This document shows, one piece after another, positions 2,467 to 27,450 of a stretch of 64,000 nucleotides of DNA. Source of the stretch: Desulfolutivibrio sulfoxidireducens (GTDB taxonomy: Bacteria; Desulfobacterota; Desulfovibrionia; Desulfovibrionales; Desulfovibrionaceae); NCBI RefSeq assembly GCF_013376475.1, contig NZ_CP045508.1:3198001-3262000 (forward strand). The letters are read 5' to 3'. Made by a program: the position numbers and the translations under genes. Within the stretch, counting starts at the first letter, position 1, and every line of letters begins with the position of its first letter. The notes beneath the pieces were generated by a model. It was not told the DNA's origin. It saw only the letters and a program-made list of their open reading frames with translations, and made no database searches.

Positions 2467-3516
2467 GTGCCGCGAACCGACACCATCCGCATCACCCCCG
2501 AGTTGTTGGCCCTCGTGGCGGAATGCGATGAATTCAAGGGCGCATGGCGCGCCCTGGGCGCCCTGGCCCCGGACCGGTTGCGCGCCCTGCGCCGCGTCGC
2601 CACCATCGAAAGCGTCGGGTCCTCGACCCGCATCGAGGGGGCCAGTCTCTCCGACCGCGAGGTGCAGCGCCTGCTCTCGCGCCTGAGCGTCACCCCCTTC
2701 GCCACCCGGGACGAACAGGAGGTGGCCGGATATGCGCAGACCATGGAGATGGTCTTCGACTCCTGGGCGGACATCCCCCTGACCGAAAACCACATCAAGC
2801 AACTGCACCGCGATTTGCTACGCCACAGTGAAAAAGACGCCCGACATCGCGGGGAATACAAAAAATTCCCCAACACCGTGGCGGCGTTCGATCCGGACGG
2901 ACGACAGCTCGGGGTCATCTTCGAAACGGCCTCGCCTTTCGCCACGCCGGGACGCATGGCCGAACTCGTCTCCTGGCTCGATGAGCACAACGACCGCAAA
3001 CTGCTGCATCCGTTGCTGCGCATCGCCGTATTCGTGGTGGCATTTCTGGAGATACATCCCTTTCAGGACGGCAACGGACGCCTAAGCCGCATCCTGACCA
3101 CCCTGCTTCTGTTGCGGGACGGCTATGCCTATGTCCCGTACAGTTCGCTGGAAAGCGTCATCGAGAGCGGCAAGGAGGCGTATTATCTCGCCCTGCGCCA
3201 GACGCAGGGCACGCTACGCACAGCCTCGCCGGATTGGCAGCCCTGGCTTGCGTACTTTCTAAAGGCATTGGCGCGGCAGACACGGCGTCTGAAGGTGAAG
3301 GTGGAGCGGGAAAAGATCGTCCTGGCCGCCCTGCCGGAACTTGCCGTGCGCATCGTCGAGCAGGCCCGGATGCACGGGCGCGTCACCATGGGTGGGATGA
3401 TCGCCATGACCGGAGCCAGCCGCAATACGCTCAAGGAGCATTTCCGCCGGCTCGTCGGGCAGGGGCTGCTTTCGCGGCATGGTTCCGGGAAAGGGACGTG
3501 GTACGCGTTGCCCTGA
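2467..3516 (+). CDS. Fic family protein (AMPylator-type) with N-terminal inhibitory motif and C-terminal winged-helix
   Basis: The Fic core motif HPFQDGNGRLSR is intact (about residues 196-207), which in this family transfers AMP or another nucleotide monophosphate to a target hydroxyl. An N-terminal (S/T)xxxEG-type inhibitory helix, SSTRIEG, is present, so it is probably a self-inhibited class II Fic. The C-terminal part (MGGMIAMTGASRNTLKEHFRRL) looks like a DNA-binding helix-turn-helix. I chose GTG 2467 because GGGGAGGAGG lies directly upstream; an ATG at 2425 would add an implausible Gly/Cys-rich leader. No antitoxin gene adjoins it. The target is unknown. Confidence 0.88.
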   Translation: MPRTDTIRITPELLALVAECDEFKGAWRALGALAPDRLRALRRVATIESVGSSTRIEGASLSDREVQRLLSRLSVTPFATRDEQEVAGYAQTMEMVFDSWADIPLTENHIKQLHRDLLRHSEKDARHRGEYKKFPNTVAAFDPDGRQLGVIFETASPFATPGRMAELVSWLDEHNDRKLLHPLLRIAVFVVAFLEIHPFQDGNGRLSRILTTLLLLRDGYAYVPYSSLESVIESGKEAYYLALRQTQGTLRTASPDWQPWLAYFLKALARQTRRLKVKVEREKIVLAALPELAVRIVEQARMHGRVTMGGMIAMTGASRNTLKEHFRRLVGQGLLSRHGSGKGTWYALP

Positions 3517-3762
3517 AAGGCGGCGTCCCCGGGACGGTGGGGAAAGGGGCGCCGGCCCCATGCCGGGGAGAATTACGGACTCCAGGCGGCCCGAATATCT
3601 CGCGCCGTATGGGCCTTGGGGTTTCGGGACGGAAGGGATGGTGAATCTGACGCTTCTTCTGGAACGTCCGACGTAGACCTCTACAAAAATACTTGGGGGG
3701 CGACTGGAGGGGGTGGAGGCGGCAGAGGACGAGGTTCTGGAGGAAGTCCGGCGGCGCGGACG

Positions 3763-4932
3763 TCAGCCCAGCCCCACAGCAGTCAACAGCCCGGACAAGA
3801 CCTTGGCCGCGTCGAAATGCTCCTCGGCGATCTTCCGGGCGGCCCGGCCGTGCCGGGCGGGGTCGGCCTCCACGGCCCGGATGGCGGCCATGGCCGCCTC
3901 CATCCCCTCGAAGGCGAAAAGCCCCTCGCCCGTGGGCAGGACGGTCTTAAATCCCGTGTCCTCGTCGATGACCGGCCGGCCGGCGGCCAGATACGCGGCG
4001 CTTCGGTCCGAGAACCAGCCGCTTTTTAAGATCACGTTCTGGTCCTTGGCCAGGGAGAAATGGGCGCGCGAGGAAAGGATGTAGTCGCGGTAGACCTCCG
4101 GGTCGGCGGACACGGCCAGGGCGTCGCGCACGATCCATCCGGCCTGCGCGAAACGCGGGCCGGCCTCCTTCATGCCGCTCATGGTCAGTTCCAGGTCCAC
4201 TCCGGGCAGACGCGACGGCAGGTCGATCATGGCCTCGTACTTGACGCTCTTGCGCCAGGAAAGCCGGCGTCCCCCGATCTCCATATCCCGGTCCCTGGCG
4301 TCCCAGGTGCCGATGGTGGTGTAGCCCCGGCCGGTCCCCGGGGCCCCGGCCCACAGGTCCAGGACCACGGGAGGCGTCAGGGGTTTCCAGTCGAGCCCCG
4401 ACAGGGGCACGTCCGGCACGGTCCCGGAGGGGATGTTCAGGCCGTAGGTGAAATGGAACTGGTGGGCCAGGACATAGTCGCGCATGCCCGGGTCCCGGGC
4501 GATCTTGACCTGGGTGAAGATCGGGTCCGTGTCGATGAAGGCCCGGACCCGGGGGGCCAGGTACTCGTCGCGAAGCGGGATCACCCCGGAGACGTTCAGG
4601 AAAAGGTCGGACGCGGCGCAAAACCGGTGGGCCTCGTCCGGGGACACGCCCCAGGTGGCCCCCTCGATGTCGCTGCGGTAGAAATACCGGCCGGAAAGCC
4701 CGTGCCGGGCCAGCATGGCCTCAAGCACGCCCCGGCCATGCCTGGAATCGTCCACGCCATGCCCCACGGCCGGATCGAAGGGATAGGCCCAGTCCGAGGC
4801 ATCCTCCAGAAAAAGGACCTCATGGCCCAGCCGGCTCAGGCCCAGAAGGTAATGCAGGATCATCCAGGCCTGGCCGCCCAGGGGAAAGCCCACGAAAAAA
4901 CCGGCCACCACGATGCGCAGGGGACGTTTCAT
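3763..4932 (-). CDS. glycosyltransferase, GT-B-like (family 1/4-like)
   Basis: 389 residues. The N-terminus IVVAGFFVGFPLGGQAWMILHYLLGL resembles the first Rossmann strand and Gly-rich loop of GT-B enzymes. The C-terminal half has FSLAKDQNVILKSGWFSDRSAAYLAAGRPVI(18 residues later)EGLFAFEG, matching the nucleotide-sugar-binding end of such proteins. It follows the polysaccharide deacetylase by 7 bp in the same direction, so the pair likely acts on one glycan or surface polymer. Donor and acceptor cannot be told. The start ATG is unambiguous. Confidence 0.65.
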   Translation of the reverse strand: MKRPLRIVVAGFFVGFPLGGQAWMILHYLLGLSRLGHEVLFLEDASDWAYPFDPAVGHGVDDSRHGRGVLEAMLARHGLSGRYFYRSDIEGATWGVSPDEAHRFCAASDLFLNVSGVIPLRDEYLAPRVRAFIDTDPIFTQVKIARDPGMRDYVLAHQFHFTYGLNIPSGTVPDVPLSGLDWKPLTPPVVLDLWAGAPGTGRGYTTIGTWDARDRDMEIGGRRLSWRKSVKYEAMIDLPSRLPGVDLELTMSGMKEAGPRFAQAGWIVRDALAVSADPEVYRDYILSSRAHFSLAKDQNVILKSGWFSDRSAAYLAAGRPVIDEDTGFKTVLPTGEGLFAFEGMEAAMAAIRAVEADPARHGRAARKIAEEHFDAAKVLSGLLTAVGLG

Positions 4933-24419: not shown

Positions 24420-24818
24420 ATGCCCACCGCGCCGCATCTGGCCACCGGCCAACGCGGCGAGAACGCCGCCCTGGACCACCTTCTGGCCAGGGGCTGGCGC
24501 ATCGTGGCCCGCAACTGGCGCTGCCCAAAGGGCGAAATCGATTTCGTCTGCCAGACGGATGACACCCTGGTCTTCGTCGAGGTCAAAACCCGCGCCGCCT
24601 CGCCCCAGGCCGATCCGGCCGGGGCCGTCACCGCCTCCAAACGCTCCCGCCTGGTCAAGGCCGCCATGGCCTACCTGTCGCGCCACGAGGCCTGGGACCA
24701 GCCCTGCCGCTTCGATGTCGTGACCATCCTGGAGACACCGGCCGGGCCGCGCGTCGGGCATATCGAAAACGCCTTCGACGCCTCGGCATACATGGGAAGG
24801 GGCTATCAGCCGTTTTGA
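24420..24818 (+). CDS. yraN: YraN/UPF0102 family endonuclease-like protein
   Basis: 132 residues. GQRGENAALDHLLARGWRIV...KGEIDFVCQ...LVFVEVKTR is the UPF0102 signature, with a PD-(D/E)xK-type E/D-ExK core. The family is thought to be nuclease-like, with an unproven role. It starts on the base after the preceding stop, so it is translated from the same mRNA. Confidence 0.9.
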   Translation: MPTAPHLATGQRGENAALDHLLARGWRIVARNWRCPKGEIDFVCQTDDTLVFVEVKTRAASPQADPAGAVTASKRSRLVKAAMAYLSRHEAWDQPCRFDVVTILETPAGPRVGHIENAFDASAYMGRGYQPF

Positions 24819-25020: not shown

Positions 25021-25218
25021 ATGAAGTGCCGGGAGTTGTTGAGGCGACTGGCCGCCCTCGGGGCGGAAATCGAACCCGCCCGGGGCAAGGGCGGCCACGT
25101 GATGGCACGCCTTGCCGGCAGGAAAGCCCCGGTCCCCATGCACGGAGACACGGACATCGGACCGGTCTTCATCAAAATGCTGTGCAAGCACCTGGGCATC
25201 AACCCGAAGGACCTGTAA
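25021..25218 (+). CDS. hicA: HicA-type toxin (mRNA interferase)
   Basis: 65 residues, typical of the dsRBD-like HicA fold. The active-site His lies in GKGGHVMARLAGRKAPVPMH, and the C-terminus FIKMLCKHLGI matches the family. HicA cleaves mRNA when not bound by HicB. Its stop is 2 bp from the hicB start. Confidence 0.88.
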   Translation: MKCRELLRRLAALGAEIEPARGKGGHVMARLAGRKAPVPMHGDTDIGPVFIKMLCKHLGINPKDL

Positions 25219-25220
25219 TC

Positions 25221-25694
25221 ATGCGCTATGCGGTCAACCTGACCCCGGACGAGAACGGTACGGTCATCGCCGAAATCCCCGATCTGCCGGGTACGTTCAC
25301 CTTTGGAACAGATGAATCCGACGCCCTGGATATGGCCCTCGATGCGGCGCTGACCATGTTAAGCGCCATGATGGACGATAACGAGGATATTCCCCTGCCC
25401 TCTGACATCGGGCCGGACGCGCCGTTCATCGAACTGCCGCCCATGGCCGTGGTGAAGCTGGCCATCTACCAGGGCATGCGGGACCAGGGGGTGAGCCAGC
25501 TCAAGATGGCGGCGCGCCTGCATACCGACCCGAAGTCCGTTCGCCGGCTCCTCGACCTGTACCACCGCTCCAAGTGGGACCACCTGGAAATGGCGCTGGA
25601 GGCGCTGGGGTACCGCGCCGTGGTGCGGGTGGAGCCGTCGCCGATCTACCCGGGGTTTTTCGGGGGGAAGGTGAAGGAGAGGGTGGTGGGGTGA
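25221..25694 (+). CDS. hicB: HicB-type antitoxin with C-terminal HTH
   Basis: 157 residues. The N-terminal partial RNase-H-like fold is seen in YAVNLTPDENGTVIAEIPDL and ALDMALDAALTMLS. The C-terminal part (GVSQLKMAARLHTDPKSVRRL) is a helix-turn-helix that should bind the palindrome in front of hicA. Neutralises HicA. The C-terminal extension is longer than in minimal HicB proteins. Confidence 0.88.
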   Translation: MRYAVNLTPDENGTVIAEIPDLPGTFTFGTDESDALDMALDAALTMLSAMMDDNEDIPLPSDIGPDAPFIELPPMAVVKLAIYQGMRDQGVSQLKMAARLHTDPKSVRRLLDLYHRSKWDHLEMALEALGYRAVVRVEPSPIYPGFFGGKVKERVVG

Positions 25695-25745
25695 AATTAT
25701 TTCTGTACACTAATATCTATTCGTGCATACCGCCTAATCAACTCC

Positions 25746-26744
25746 TCAAAATGGCAAATCGTCCGTATCTTCAGGGAAAATTTGTTCTGGTAATGCCCCC
25801 GCAGGCAAGGGAAGGTTTGTGACGACGAATAGGTTCAAAATGTCGTCTCGGTCCATGAAAATGATCTGTCGCCGTTGGGAAGCATCGAGCATATTACCAA
25901 GCCAGTTGCGCGCAGCTTTGGTGATTTCACCACCTGACACGATGAAAGCGTGGTCTACAAGAACTCGTCTGCCGATCTCGGGATCAAAGATTTCATGTCC
26001 GAGCATCATTAGAGCCTGATTAAGAATCTCGGCAATGTTTGCATTTGTCGCTTTGCTCTGTCCTGCGGCGTCAAGTTTTCCTTTCTTTACCTGAAGGCCG
26101 AAGTAAAGTACATGTTGAGTTGGGAGCGTGTAGCGCATCCAAATATCTTTCCCGTACTCAAGAGCCTTATCCTTATGCCCTGCGATAGAAACACGATGAA
26201 ACCCGAGTTGACGAAAGAGCGGCAATAAAATCTCTTGAATCAGTTCATCTTCGGATGCTCCATCCAGATACGTAGACAACATCCCTCTTTTCTCAAGCTC
26301 TGCGGCAGAAAACGGTCGGTGCGGATTAGGGGATGATTGTGCAATCTGGTTCGTTGCAACGTGCCGCAAATAACACTGCCCATCCGCAGCATAGAAAGCT
26401 TCAAACCCTTCACGGACAAGTGCCGCATTTAGAGTGGCTAAAGCACACCTCCGTTCTTGGTCCTCGTTGGTTGCATCGCCCTTATCCATGAGCATCTTAA
26501 TCACAAGCAAAAAAGACTCTGGCGGTGTGTTTGCCGCCGGCCATGGCTCGGCCAAAATCGTTTGAAGCTTATCGGCAACCCAAGCACTTCTCGTTGATCC
26601 ATCATGCCGAAAGTCCGTTTCACAATCCTGAAAAAATTCCGTCAGAAAACTACTACTCCGATACCGAAAATAACACTCTGTTTCCCCCGAATTTCCGCAA
26701 ATCATTTCTGCTATCTGAGAAAGTGTACGTCGTTTAAATGGCAT
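25746..26744 (-). CDS. putative phage-defence protein: AbiJ-N-terminal-like domain plus Mrr/PD-(D/E)xK-like nuclease domain
   Basis: 332 residues in DNA AT-richer than its neighbours. Residues 1-110 (RTLSQIAEMI, FRYRSSSFLTEFFQDC, HDGSTRSAWVADKL) resemble the N-terminal domain of AbiJ-like abortive-infection proteins as I remember them. Residues about 175-270 contain ELIQEILLPLFRQLGFHRV, then EYGKDIWMRY and YFGLQVKKGKLD, an arrangement of helix, D and QxK like Mrr-family restriction endonucleases. The ATG has GGGAG upstream. It lies next to HicAB in an accessory island. No methyltransferase partner is present. Both domain calls need profile searches. Confidence 0.6.
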   Translation of the reverse strand: MPFKRRTLSQIAEMICGNSGETECYFRYRSSSFLTEFFQDCETDFRHDGSTRSAWVADKLQTILAEPWPAANTPPESFLLVIKMLMDKGDATNEDQERRCALATLNAALVREGFEAFYAADGQCYLRHVATNQIAQSSPNPHRPFSAAELEKRGMLSTYLDGASEDELIQEILLPLFRQLGFHRVSIAGHKDKALEYGKDIWMRYTLPTQHVLYFGLQVKKGKLDAAGQSKATNANIAEILNQALMMLGHEIFDPEIGRRVLVDHAFIVSGGEITKAARNWLGNMLDASQRRQIIFMDRDDILNLFVVTNLPLPAGALPEQIFPEDTDDLPF

Positions 26745-26832
26745 CGTGAACTCCCTTATGGCATGAGCTCTCGAGGTAGCCGGTCATTGAAAGGCCCGTT
26801 GTGTGTACAGCATGTACTCAGTCATAAAATCC

Positions 26833-27450
26833 TCACCCCGCCCTTCTCATCGCCGCCGTCAGCAGCCCGGCTCCGACCAGCACGCCGCCGCCGGCCTTGC
26901 GGATGACGCCCACAAAGCGCGGGTCGGACAGCCTGCCGCCGGCCCGGGCCGCAAGCGCCGCGTACATATAGGCATTGACCGCCGCAAGCACGGTGAAGGT
27001 GGCCCCGAGAAGCACCAGTTGCGGCGCGACCGGATGCGAATGGGACACGAACTGCGGCAGAAACGCGATGAAGAACATGATGCTTTTGGGATTGAGCACG
27101 GTGACGCAAAAGGCCTGCGCGAAGCGCGCCTTTTTGGCGGCCAGCGGATCAACGGCAAGCGCGCCCCCCTTTTCCCGGAGCATCTTCACGCCGAGCCACA
27201 CCAGATAGACCGCGCCGATCCATTTCACCACAGTGAAAAGCGCCGCCGATGCGGCCAGAAGCGCGCCGAGTCCCAGCATGGACAGGGTGATTGCGGTCAG
27301 GTCGCCGAGGGTGACGCCCGCGACCAGCGGAAGCACGTTTTTCTTGCCGTCGGCGAGGCCCCTGCTGATCAGGAGCATGACGGTGGGACCGGGAATGACC
27401 AGAACAACGGCGGATGCGGCCACGAAGGCCAGATAAAGTTCCAGGGGCAC
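26833..27450 (-). CDS. LysE/RhtB family amino-acid exporter
   Basis: 205 residues with six hydrophobic helices. PGPTVMLLISRGLADG near the N-terminus and FAQAFCVTVLNPKSIMFFIAFLPQF are the LysE-family signatures. The family exports amino acids such as homoserine, threonine or lysine; the substrate here is unknown. Start GTG 27450 has GGAGGAAAA upstream. Confidence 0.9.
   Translation of the reverse strand: MPLELYLAFVAASAVVLVIPGPTVMLLISRGLADGKKNVLPLVAGVTLGDLTAITLSMLGLGALLAASAALFTVVKWIGAVYLVWLGVKMLREKGGALAVDPLAAKKARFAQAFCVTVLNPKSIMFFIAFLPQFVSHSHPVAPQLVLLGATFTVLAAVNAYMYAALAARAGGRLSDPRFVGVIRKAGGGVLVGAGLLTAAMRRAG

Follow-up and report, generated by a model that had tools for sequence, protein, structure and literature searches.

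A horizontally acquired gene of Desulfolutivibrio sulfoxidireducens joins an AbiJ-NTD1-like domain to a predicted Mrr-type nuclease and is a likely one-protein phage defence

The gene described here (Table 1) is likely to be a self-contained, horizontally moved sensor-effector gene, that is, a one-protein defence against phage based on a DNase which is activated by a trigger. It is located in a 64,000-nt stretch of the Desulfolutivibrio sulfoxidireducens genome (NZ_CP045508.1, 3,198,001-3,262,000), referred to as the window; all positions are given within it. In the resting cell, a helical N-terminal domain of the AbiJ-NTD1 type would keep the Mrr-type nuclease inactive. When phage infection or the entry of invading DNA provides a cue, the nuclease would be released or assembled and would presumably cut DNA by means of E165, D200, Q218, K220 and a metal ion. 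The outcome would be the destruction of phage DNA, or of DNA in general, the latter amounting to abortive infection. We infer the anti-phage activity of the protein, as well as abortive infection in preference to direct restriction.

Table 1. Features of the locus (positions within the 64,000-nt window)
Feature	Position	Strand	Description
Target CDS	25746..26744	-	332 aa; AbiJ-NTD1-like putative sensor domain and predicted Mrr-type PD-(D/E)XK nuclease domain
N-terminal domain, residues 1-128	26361..26744	-	Five helices and a beta hairpin (model)
C-terminal nuclease domain, residues 149-315	25800..26300	-	E165, D200, Q218, K220; predicted fold
Insert	25696..26832	.	1,137 bp, GC 0.471; from hicB stop to lysE end
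hicA toxin	25021..25218	+	Neighbour, outside the system; PF07927, E 2.9e-8
hicB-like antitoxin	25221..25694	+	Neighbour; PF15919, E 2.1e-8; 3' end is the left insert border
lysE-type translocator	26833..27450	-	Neighbour; Pfam LysE; 3' end is the right insert border

The reading frame is intact, with an ATG start and a TGA stop. A sequence-only reading of this DNA had quoted motifs from both halves of the product, and these are indeed present and conserved in 76 relatives: YRSSSFLTEFF...GSTRSAWV corresponds to residues 28-56, KDIWMRY to residues 199-205 (including D200) and LQVKKGK to residues 217-223 (including Q218 and K220). Since the key residues Y28, F38, R52, W55, E165, D200, Q218 and K220 are invariant across the 76 aligned relatives, the quoted motifs are conserved rather than fortuitous. 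The gene was also rightly called AT-rich. Its GC content is 0.474, a value equally low in just 4 of 253 one-kb window steps, and its GC3 is 0.444 versus 0.80-0.90 in nine other window genes (hicA, hicB, lysE, ftsZ, ftsA, ftsQ, a SpoIIE-like gene, a UPF0102 gene and one that we take to be murB). As its GC3 is far below that of the resident genes, the target is most likely a recent guest in the genome, acquired horizontally and foreign in composition. Inspection by eye showed an imperfectly palindromic stretch (coding strand: GTACATGCTGTAC) at 26805-26817, about 60-70 bp upstream of the target start, which could be an operator.

Structure prediction supports an Mrr-type PD-(D/E)XK restriction endonuclease fold for the C-terminal half, with the D...QxK residues at the expected strands. 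The AlphaFold2 model of the full protein, built with the 76 relatives, has a mean pLDDT of 83.4 and a pTM of 0.56; within residues 150-310 the pLDDT blocks are mostly at 85-91, with dips at 181-200 and 221-240. Predicted residues 149-315 contain the alpha-beta-beta-beta-alpha-beta core of PD-(D/E)XK nucleases, the elements following each other in the core order (helix 165-179, strands 182-184, 201-206 and 212-220, helix 235-248). D200 is placed just ahead of strand 201-206, the second of the core, Q218-x-K220 is on the third core strand 212-220 and E165 is on the preceding helix. The best VIA-align match of residues 149-315 was AspBHI (Z 10.2, 134 aligned residues, rmsd 3.5), followed by LlaBIII (Z 8.7), FokI (8.6), MspJI (8.5) and EcoT38I (7.7). 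All seven rows with Z of at least 7.7 are restriction enzymes; the defence proteins Avs4, HamA and SduA come next at Z of about 7, amid unrelated rows. Foldseek also placed MspJI on top (E 7.3e-4), as its sole match below 0.001. In this half, then, the structural comparison bore out the Mrr-like core proposed from the sequence.

The four putative catalytic residues are nearly invariant. In a set of 112 loci including the window's own, from which hand-listed duplicates were excluded and in which near-copies remain, E165 is kept in 109 of 109 rows having a residue at that place, D200 in 109 of 110, Q218 in 108 of 109 and K220 in 109 of 109. Departures are limited to two copies: one of the pair from Mycobacterium kyorinense, which has H218, and the one from Ketogulonicigenium, which is interrupted by a stop. 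An internal stop is also carried by two further copies (L004 and L131). The loop around GHKDKALEYGKD (residues 188-198) has low pLDDT and yet contains many invariant residues, so in the model it might be an active-site loop which becomes ordered upon binding.

The accessible parts of two publications offer points of comparison for this half. The Mrr-like D-X(12)-QxK site of Pam7902I was probed by mutagenesis (PMC8281217), and an Mrr-cat (D/E)..(D/E/Q)XK domain is ascribed to the MspJI family (PMC3874153). MspJI and AspBHI share the Mrr-cat PD-(D/E)XK nuclease half predicted for the target, and the Mrr/BisI-family enzymes have the same D...QxK catalytic residues. The spacing differs, being D-X(17)-Q in the target versus D-X(12)-QxK in the Mrr/BisI enzymes (PMC8281217), as does the accessory domain, and the target has no Pfam match.

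The family libraries do not contain the protein. It matched no family of PADLOC, PHROGs or Pfam at E <= 10, including all Pfam AbiJ_NTD models and among them AbiJ_NTD3 (PF18860). The only NCBIfam match was SulA at E 0.15, with 11.9 bits against a cut-off of 150. Among PDB sequences the target found just a chance row (E 1.6), and a profile of the 76 relatives found none. The architecture is nevertheless known, as a prediction, since 2013. Anantharaman et al. (PMC3710099) reported the fusion of AbiJ-NTD1 to Mrr-type REases and, in the accessible text, described AbiJ-NTD1 as a mostly helical domain of about 140 aa whose partners are AbiJ-type HEPN, DUF4145 and REase domains and also nucleoside deoxyribosyltransferase, HKD, kinase and Ymh domains; residues 1-140 of Bcep1808_2091 serve as its reference. 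The target shares with this description the domain order, an overlapping set of partners, a similar size and a mostly helical character. There, a single gi number stands for the REase fusion, and its residues, spread, context and structure are not described. That the target fits AbiJ-NTD1 plus Mrr-type REase is judged from its set of partners and not from a direct alignment.

According to the same 2013 classification, AbiJ, an abortive infection protein of Lactococcus, also begins with a domain of this type and continues with a toxic effector. In AbiJ the effector belongs to the HEPN domains and is predicted to be an RNase (PMC3710099), whereas the effector of the target has a DNase-type fold. 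The one related test that we found is negative: in the accessible part of another paper, an AbiJ of Streptococcus thermophilus, given there without its effector class, comes under 'No activity' for the phages tried (PMC12322248). We found no experiment on an AbiJ-NTD1 protein or on the target family in the open-licence literature; work elsewhere may exist.

The N-terminal domain was modelled with high confidence. The model of residues 1-135 alone has a pLDDT of 89.3 and a pTM of 0.86, and its comparison with solved structures gave results in the chance range, both by Foldseek (best E 0.18) and by VIA-align (Cas13a, Z 3.8, 85 residues, rmsd 4.0). The structural check of the AbiJ-like part thus returned no solved match, which is not proof of a new fold.

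Relatives of this domain are attached to different C-terminal domains. Four residues (G17, R29, F37 and R52) never vary among 34 aligned N-terminal domains, 28 of them located before this nuclease and 6 before other domains. A profile of the domain (A4) finds a protein (L134) at E 1.6e-7 whose C-terminus is Abi_C (Pfam, E 4.3e-20), which we take to be an AbiJ-type HEPN domain. Abi_C gave no match in the target's own genome, but as the control genomes gave none either, this result carries no weight. Two other proteins end in DUF4145-like domains: L006, with DUF4145 at E 0.16, and L125, reached by tblastn from the L006 domain, with DUF4145 at E 0.0011, below the family cut-off. AbiJ_NTD3 (PF18860) touches only the distant L125, at E 0.085 and 12.7 bits versus a cut-off of 32.5. 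The C-termini of L005, L133 and L135 look, to us, like nucleoside deoxyribosyltransferases; L005 has no Pfam match, and for L005 and L135 there was no NCBIfam match and nothing but chance rows among PDB sequences. No HKD, kinase or Ymh fusions were seen among the N-terminal-domain relatives read. As judged from these homologues preceding Abi_C and DUF4145-like domains, the N-terminal domain is modular, and the AbiJ likeness proposed by the sequence-only reading is upheld by homology to the domain before Abi_C and by partners agreeing with those of AbiJ-NTD1.

The domain is rare and scattered across phyla. A 12-row N-terminal profile found it at E <= 1e-5 in 2 of 297 genomes of the target's own phylum and in 7 of 398 genomes of a second phylum, and at E <= 1e-4 in 1 of 346 genomes of a third phylum and in 3 of 247 genomes of a fourth; these counts include the centre genome, and in some genomes only part of the first-look candidates was scored. 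We tentatively suggest, giving the idea somewhat less than even chances, that AbiJ-NTD1 is a general phage-trigger receptor with an unsolved fold, plugged into interchangeable killers (a DNase, a HEPN-type RNase and perhaps a nucleoside-processing enzyme), and that bacteria widely use the version with a DNase as a one-gene immune system, for which the 2023 PADLOC has no model.

The two halves of the protein diverge to a different extent. Among 76 full-length relatives, mean pairwise identity is 55.8% for residues 1-128 versus 77.6% for residues 149-315, and the N-terminal domain is less alike than the nuclease in 2,844 of 2,850 pairs. The choice of search peptides does not account for this gap, since they were split three and three between the halves. 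A sensor pressed by changing phage products and joined to a fixed effector would look like this.

The chief rival to the triggered DNase, which we regard as rather unlikely, is a modification-dependent restriction enzyme (type IV or IIM-like). Here the N-terminal domain would read modified bases and the nuclease would make direct cuts in modified phage DNA; the cell would not die and a cognate methylase would be unnecessary. Two modification-dependent enzymes, AspBHI and MspJI, are indeed among the closest folds of the nuclease half, and a reference cited in the accessible part of PMC8281217 describes Mrr as methyl-directed in its title. The sequence-only reading had described the gene as an orphan, and no methylase family was found among the ten neighbouring window ORFs scanned (20.4-31.4 kb region), which is also in line with such an enzyme. 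However, MspJI has an SRA-like N-terminal domain (accessible text of PMC3874153), whereas that of the target is small, mostly helical and has no SRA-type or other solved match among the 50 Foldseek and 29 VIA-align rows listed; this speaks weakly against a base reader. The fusion of a related domain to Abi_C and to DUF4145-like domains is also more in keeping with a general trigger sensor than with a base reader.

Relatives of the target as a whole are found in Pseudomonadota, Actinomycetota, Bacteroidota, Thermodesulfobacteriota and other phyla. A scan with one genome per species gave 184 confirmed related stretches, 80 of which were retained with 60-74% identity over the full or nearly full length. 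Among 99 genomes comprising the window's own and its relatives, 6 (the window's own included) had a match. The five others are two full-length copies, one stop-containing fragment near a contig end and two matches to the N-terminal domain only. In a quickly made tree with 83 rows, 79 of them assigned to a phylum, the phylum labels change 14 times versus 34.1 times in shuffles, so the labels are clustered on the tree. The Actinomycetota are accounted for by 2 changes; for the three Thermodesulfobacteriota rows it takes 3, as it does in every shuffle. Rampant transfer across phyla was considered and is too strong a description given this clustering.

In E. coli, 191 of 5,426 complete genomes (about 3.5%) contain the gene, 189 of them at 80% coverage or more, with 191 chromosomal places and 2 on plasmids; this count is a lower bound, since the search found DNA close in sequence to one plasmid copy. 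One E. coli copy carries the annotation 'restriction endonuclease', its annotated start falling within the gene (H55), and is located in an island between tRNA-Thr and an integrase. The island also encodes a YeeU/CbtA pair, an ATP-dependent nuclease with a helicase (presumably Gabija-like), an AAA ATPase and a DNA cytosine methyltransferase with an HNH nuclease. Another E. coli copy is situated in a prophage-like stretch beside hokD and rem. On an IncI plasmid of E. coli the gene is surrounded by VapBC, an Abi family protein, a TIR protein and an S-4TM putative pore-forming effector. The E. coli plasmid homologue is WP_089576189.1 (L104:10001-10981). The copy on a Klebsiella IncF plasmid follows VapBC-type genes, the remaining surroundings being metabolic and insertion-sequence genes and one AAA ATPase. 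Judging by these examples and by the types of records, homologues are found in a defence island, in a prophage and on conjugative plasmids.

Such settings bring up a second alternative, improbable in our view, in which the target serves plasmids and prophages in competition or addiction: it would mainly exclude other mobile elements and be kept for the benefit of its carriers rather than for host immunity. Homologues are present in 46 of 72,556 plasmid records (36 at 80% coverage or more), 24 of the 46 being conjugative; 40 listed rows are either unannotated or called 'hypothetical protein'. IMG/VR contributes 17 loci, some of them partial, and one site in E. coli is that of a cryptic prophage. 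Against this, none of 50,697 phage records contains a homologue, and chromosomal-metabolism families are common near 44 loci (among the top 25 families listed). Moreover, this alternative differs from the triggered DNase in the beneficiary and not in the mechanism.

The history of the target locus itself can be read from a sister genome of the same genus (G002), in which hicAB and lysE are syntenic and have 81-82% nucleotide identity. The similarity ends at window position 25695, just past the hicB stop, and resumes at 26833, at the lysE end; the target is the sole gene within the resulting insert. At the same site, the final 100 bp of hicB (window 25599-25695) are present in G002 a second time, at 89% identity. 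A 182-aa ORF (GC 0.54) sits between both copies of the hicB end, and a 254-aa ORF (GC 0.30) replaces the target between the second copy and lysE (insert features L144:1792-2803 and 2819-3583). Neither ORF has a Pfam match at E <= 0.01, and no recombinase was seen among the ORFs at the G002 insert site. Since G002 carries other cargo there, at least two different insertions have occurred behind hicB, whose 3' end looks like a place of repeated insertion. No target match was found in either of the two other genomes of the genus that were searched, G002 being one of them. The target is thus not a syntenic housekeeping gene: it has no match in these two genomes of its own genus, and in one of them other genes occupy its place.

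HicA and HicB do adjoin the target, as the sequence-only reading had stated, in convergent orientation to it. This reading had likened the arrangement to defence islands, which does not hold for the window. The Pfam families near the target are HTH, NMT1, SpoIIE/HAMP, UPF0102, LysE, FtsZ, FtsA and an FtsQ-type POTRA domain, so the locus consists of ordinary genes and is no defence island. HicAB is a resident with no specific connection to the target, because G002 retains hicAB and lysE without it. In 100 other loci (L007-L106), no HicA or HicB match was found at E <= 1e-4; the window flank proteins as a whole also gave none at this threshold, the best at E <= 10 having E 0.004. The idea that the target is a functional accessory of HicAB, suggested by the adjacency in the window and by VapBC-type genes that immediately precede the homologue on one plasmid each of E. 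coli and Klebsiella, is close to refuted by G002 and by the 100-locus search and is extremely improbable, since the target is convergent with hicAB and not co-transcribed, G002 has hicAB without the target and toxin-antitoxin types vary by locus. Upstream of hicAB, the UPF0102 gene (24420-24818) has weak matches to the nuclease domains NERD and NucS_C; with a GC3 of 0.857 it is a resident gene.

Consistent with a one-gene system, no obligate partner of the target family was found. In 46 of 70 loci the homologue stands alone, without a gene of the same strand at 60 bp or less to its left or right; the other 24 have a close same-strand neighbour, and therefore a partner in some lineages is possible. 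We clustered 845 neighbour ORFs, called by a simple custom ORF caller, from 100 loci (L004-L006, L101 and L103 were excluded and L071 had no target call). No cluster was present in more than 8 loci, and the positions varied.

Opening the neighbourhoods of homologues, as the sequence-only reading had proposed, showed the island, prophage and plasmid settings described above in individual examples. A defence scan with PADLOC and Pfam covered neighbours of 44 loci (the first 150 of 176 near ORFs after exclusion of those above 900 aa, and 85 of 88 far ORFs). GajA, AriA, NsnB and mad2 are among the PADLOC models matched by the 150 near neighbours; the near matches to SspA, DndA and QatC could be housekeeping relatives. 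Among the top 25 Pfam families listed, the near set includes integrase, IS66 transposase, ParD, SRAP and an ABC-3C family, and the far set has a mostly metabolic look. PADLOC defence models were matched in the near and far sets alike. We claim no defence enrichment, since far neighbours match too and the comparison is by the top 25 families listed, without a tally per protein.

With key residues known, a modular domain and homologues in E. coli, the prediction made in 2013 becomes directly testable. The question raised is what the AbiJ-type N-terminal domain senses. If it senses one class of phage products, the HEPN and DNase versions would be explained together; otherwise the target would be an ordinary, well-behaved member of the sensor-nuclease defence genes.

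Several observations were made near individual homologues. In L011 (at 3700-4155), L012 and L088, three loci that are nearly identical, a gene for a 151-aa protein family precedes the homologue at a distance of 25 bp; by eye, the protein has a D...QLKSR stretch and is possibly a second small PD-(D/E)XK nuclease. In four loci (L013, L034, L092 and L106), an SOS-response-associated peptidase (SRAP) gene is no more than a few genes away from the homologue, and in L106 the SRAP gene adjoins other DNA-repair genes. On Streptomyces linear plasmids (L125, L126 and L127), genes that combine AbiJ-NTD-like and HEPN-like parts directly follow a large AAA-domain gene, with which they perhaps form a two-gene system.
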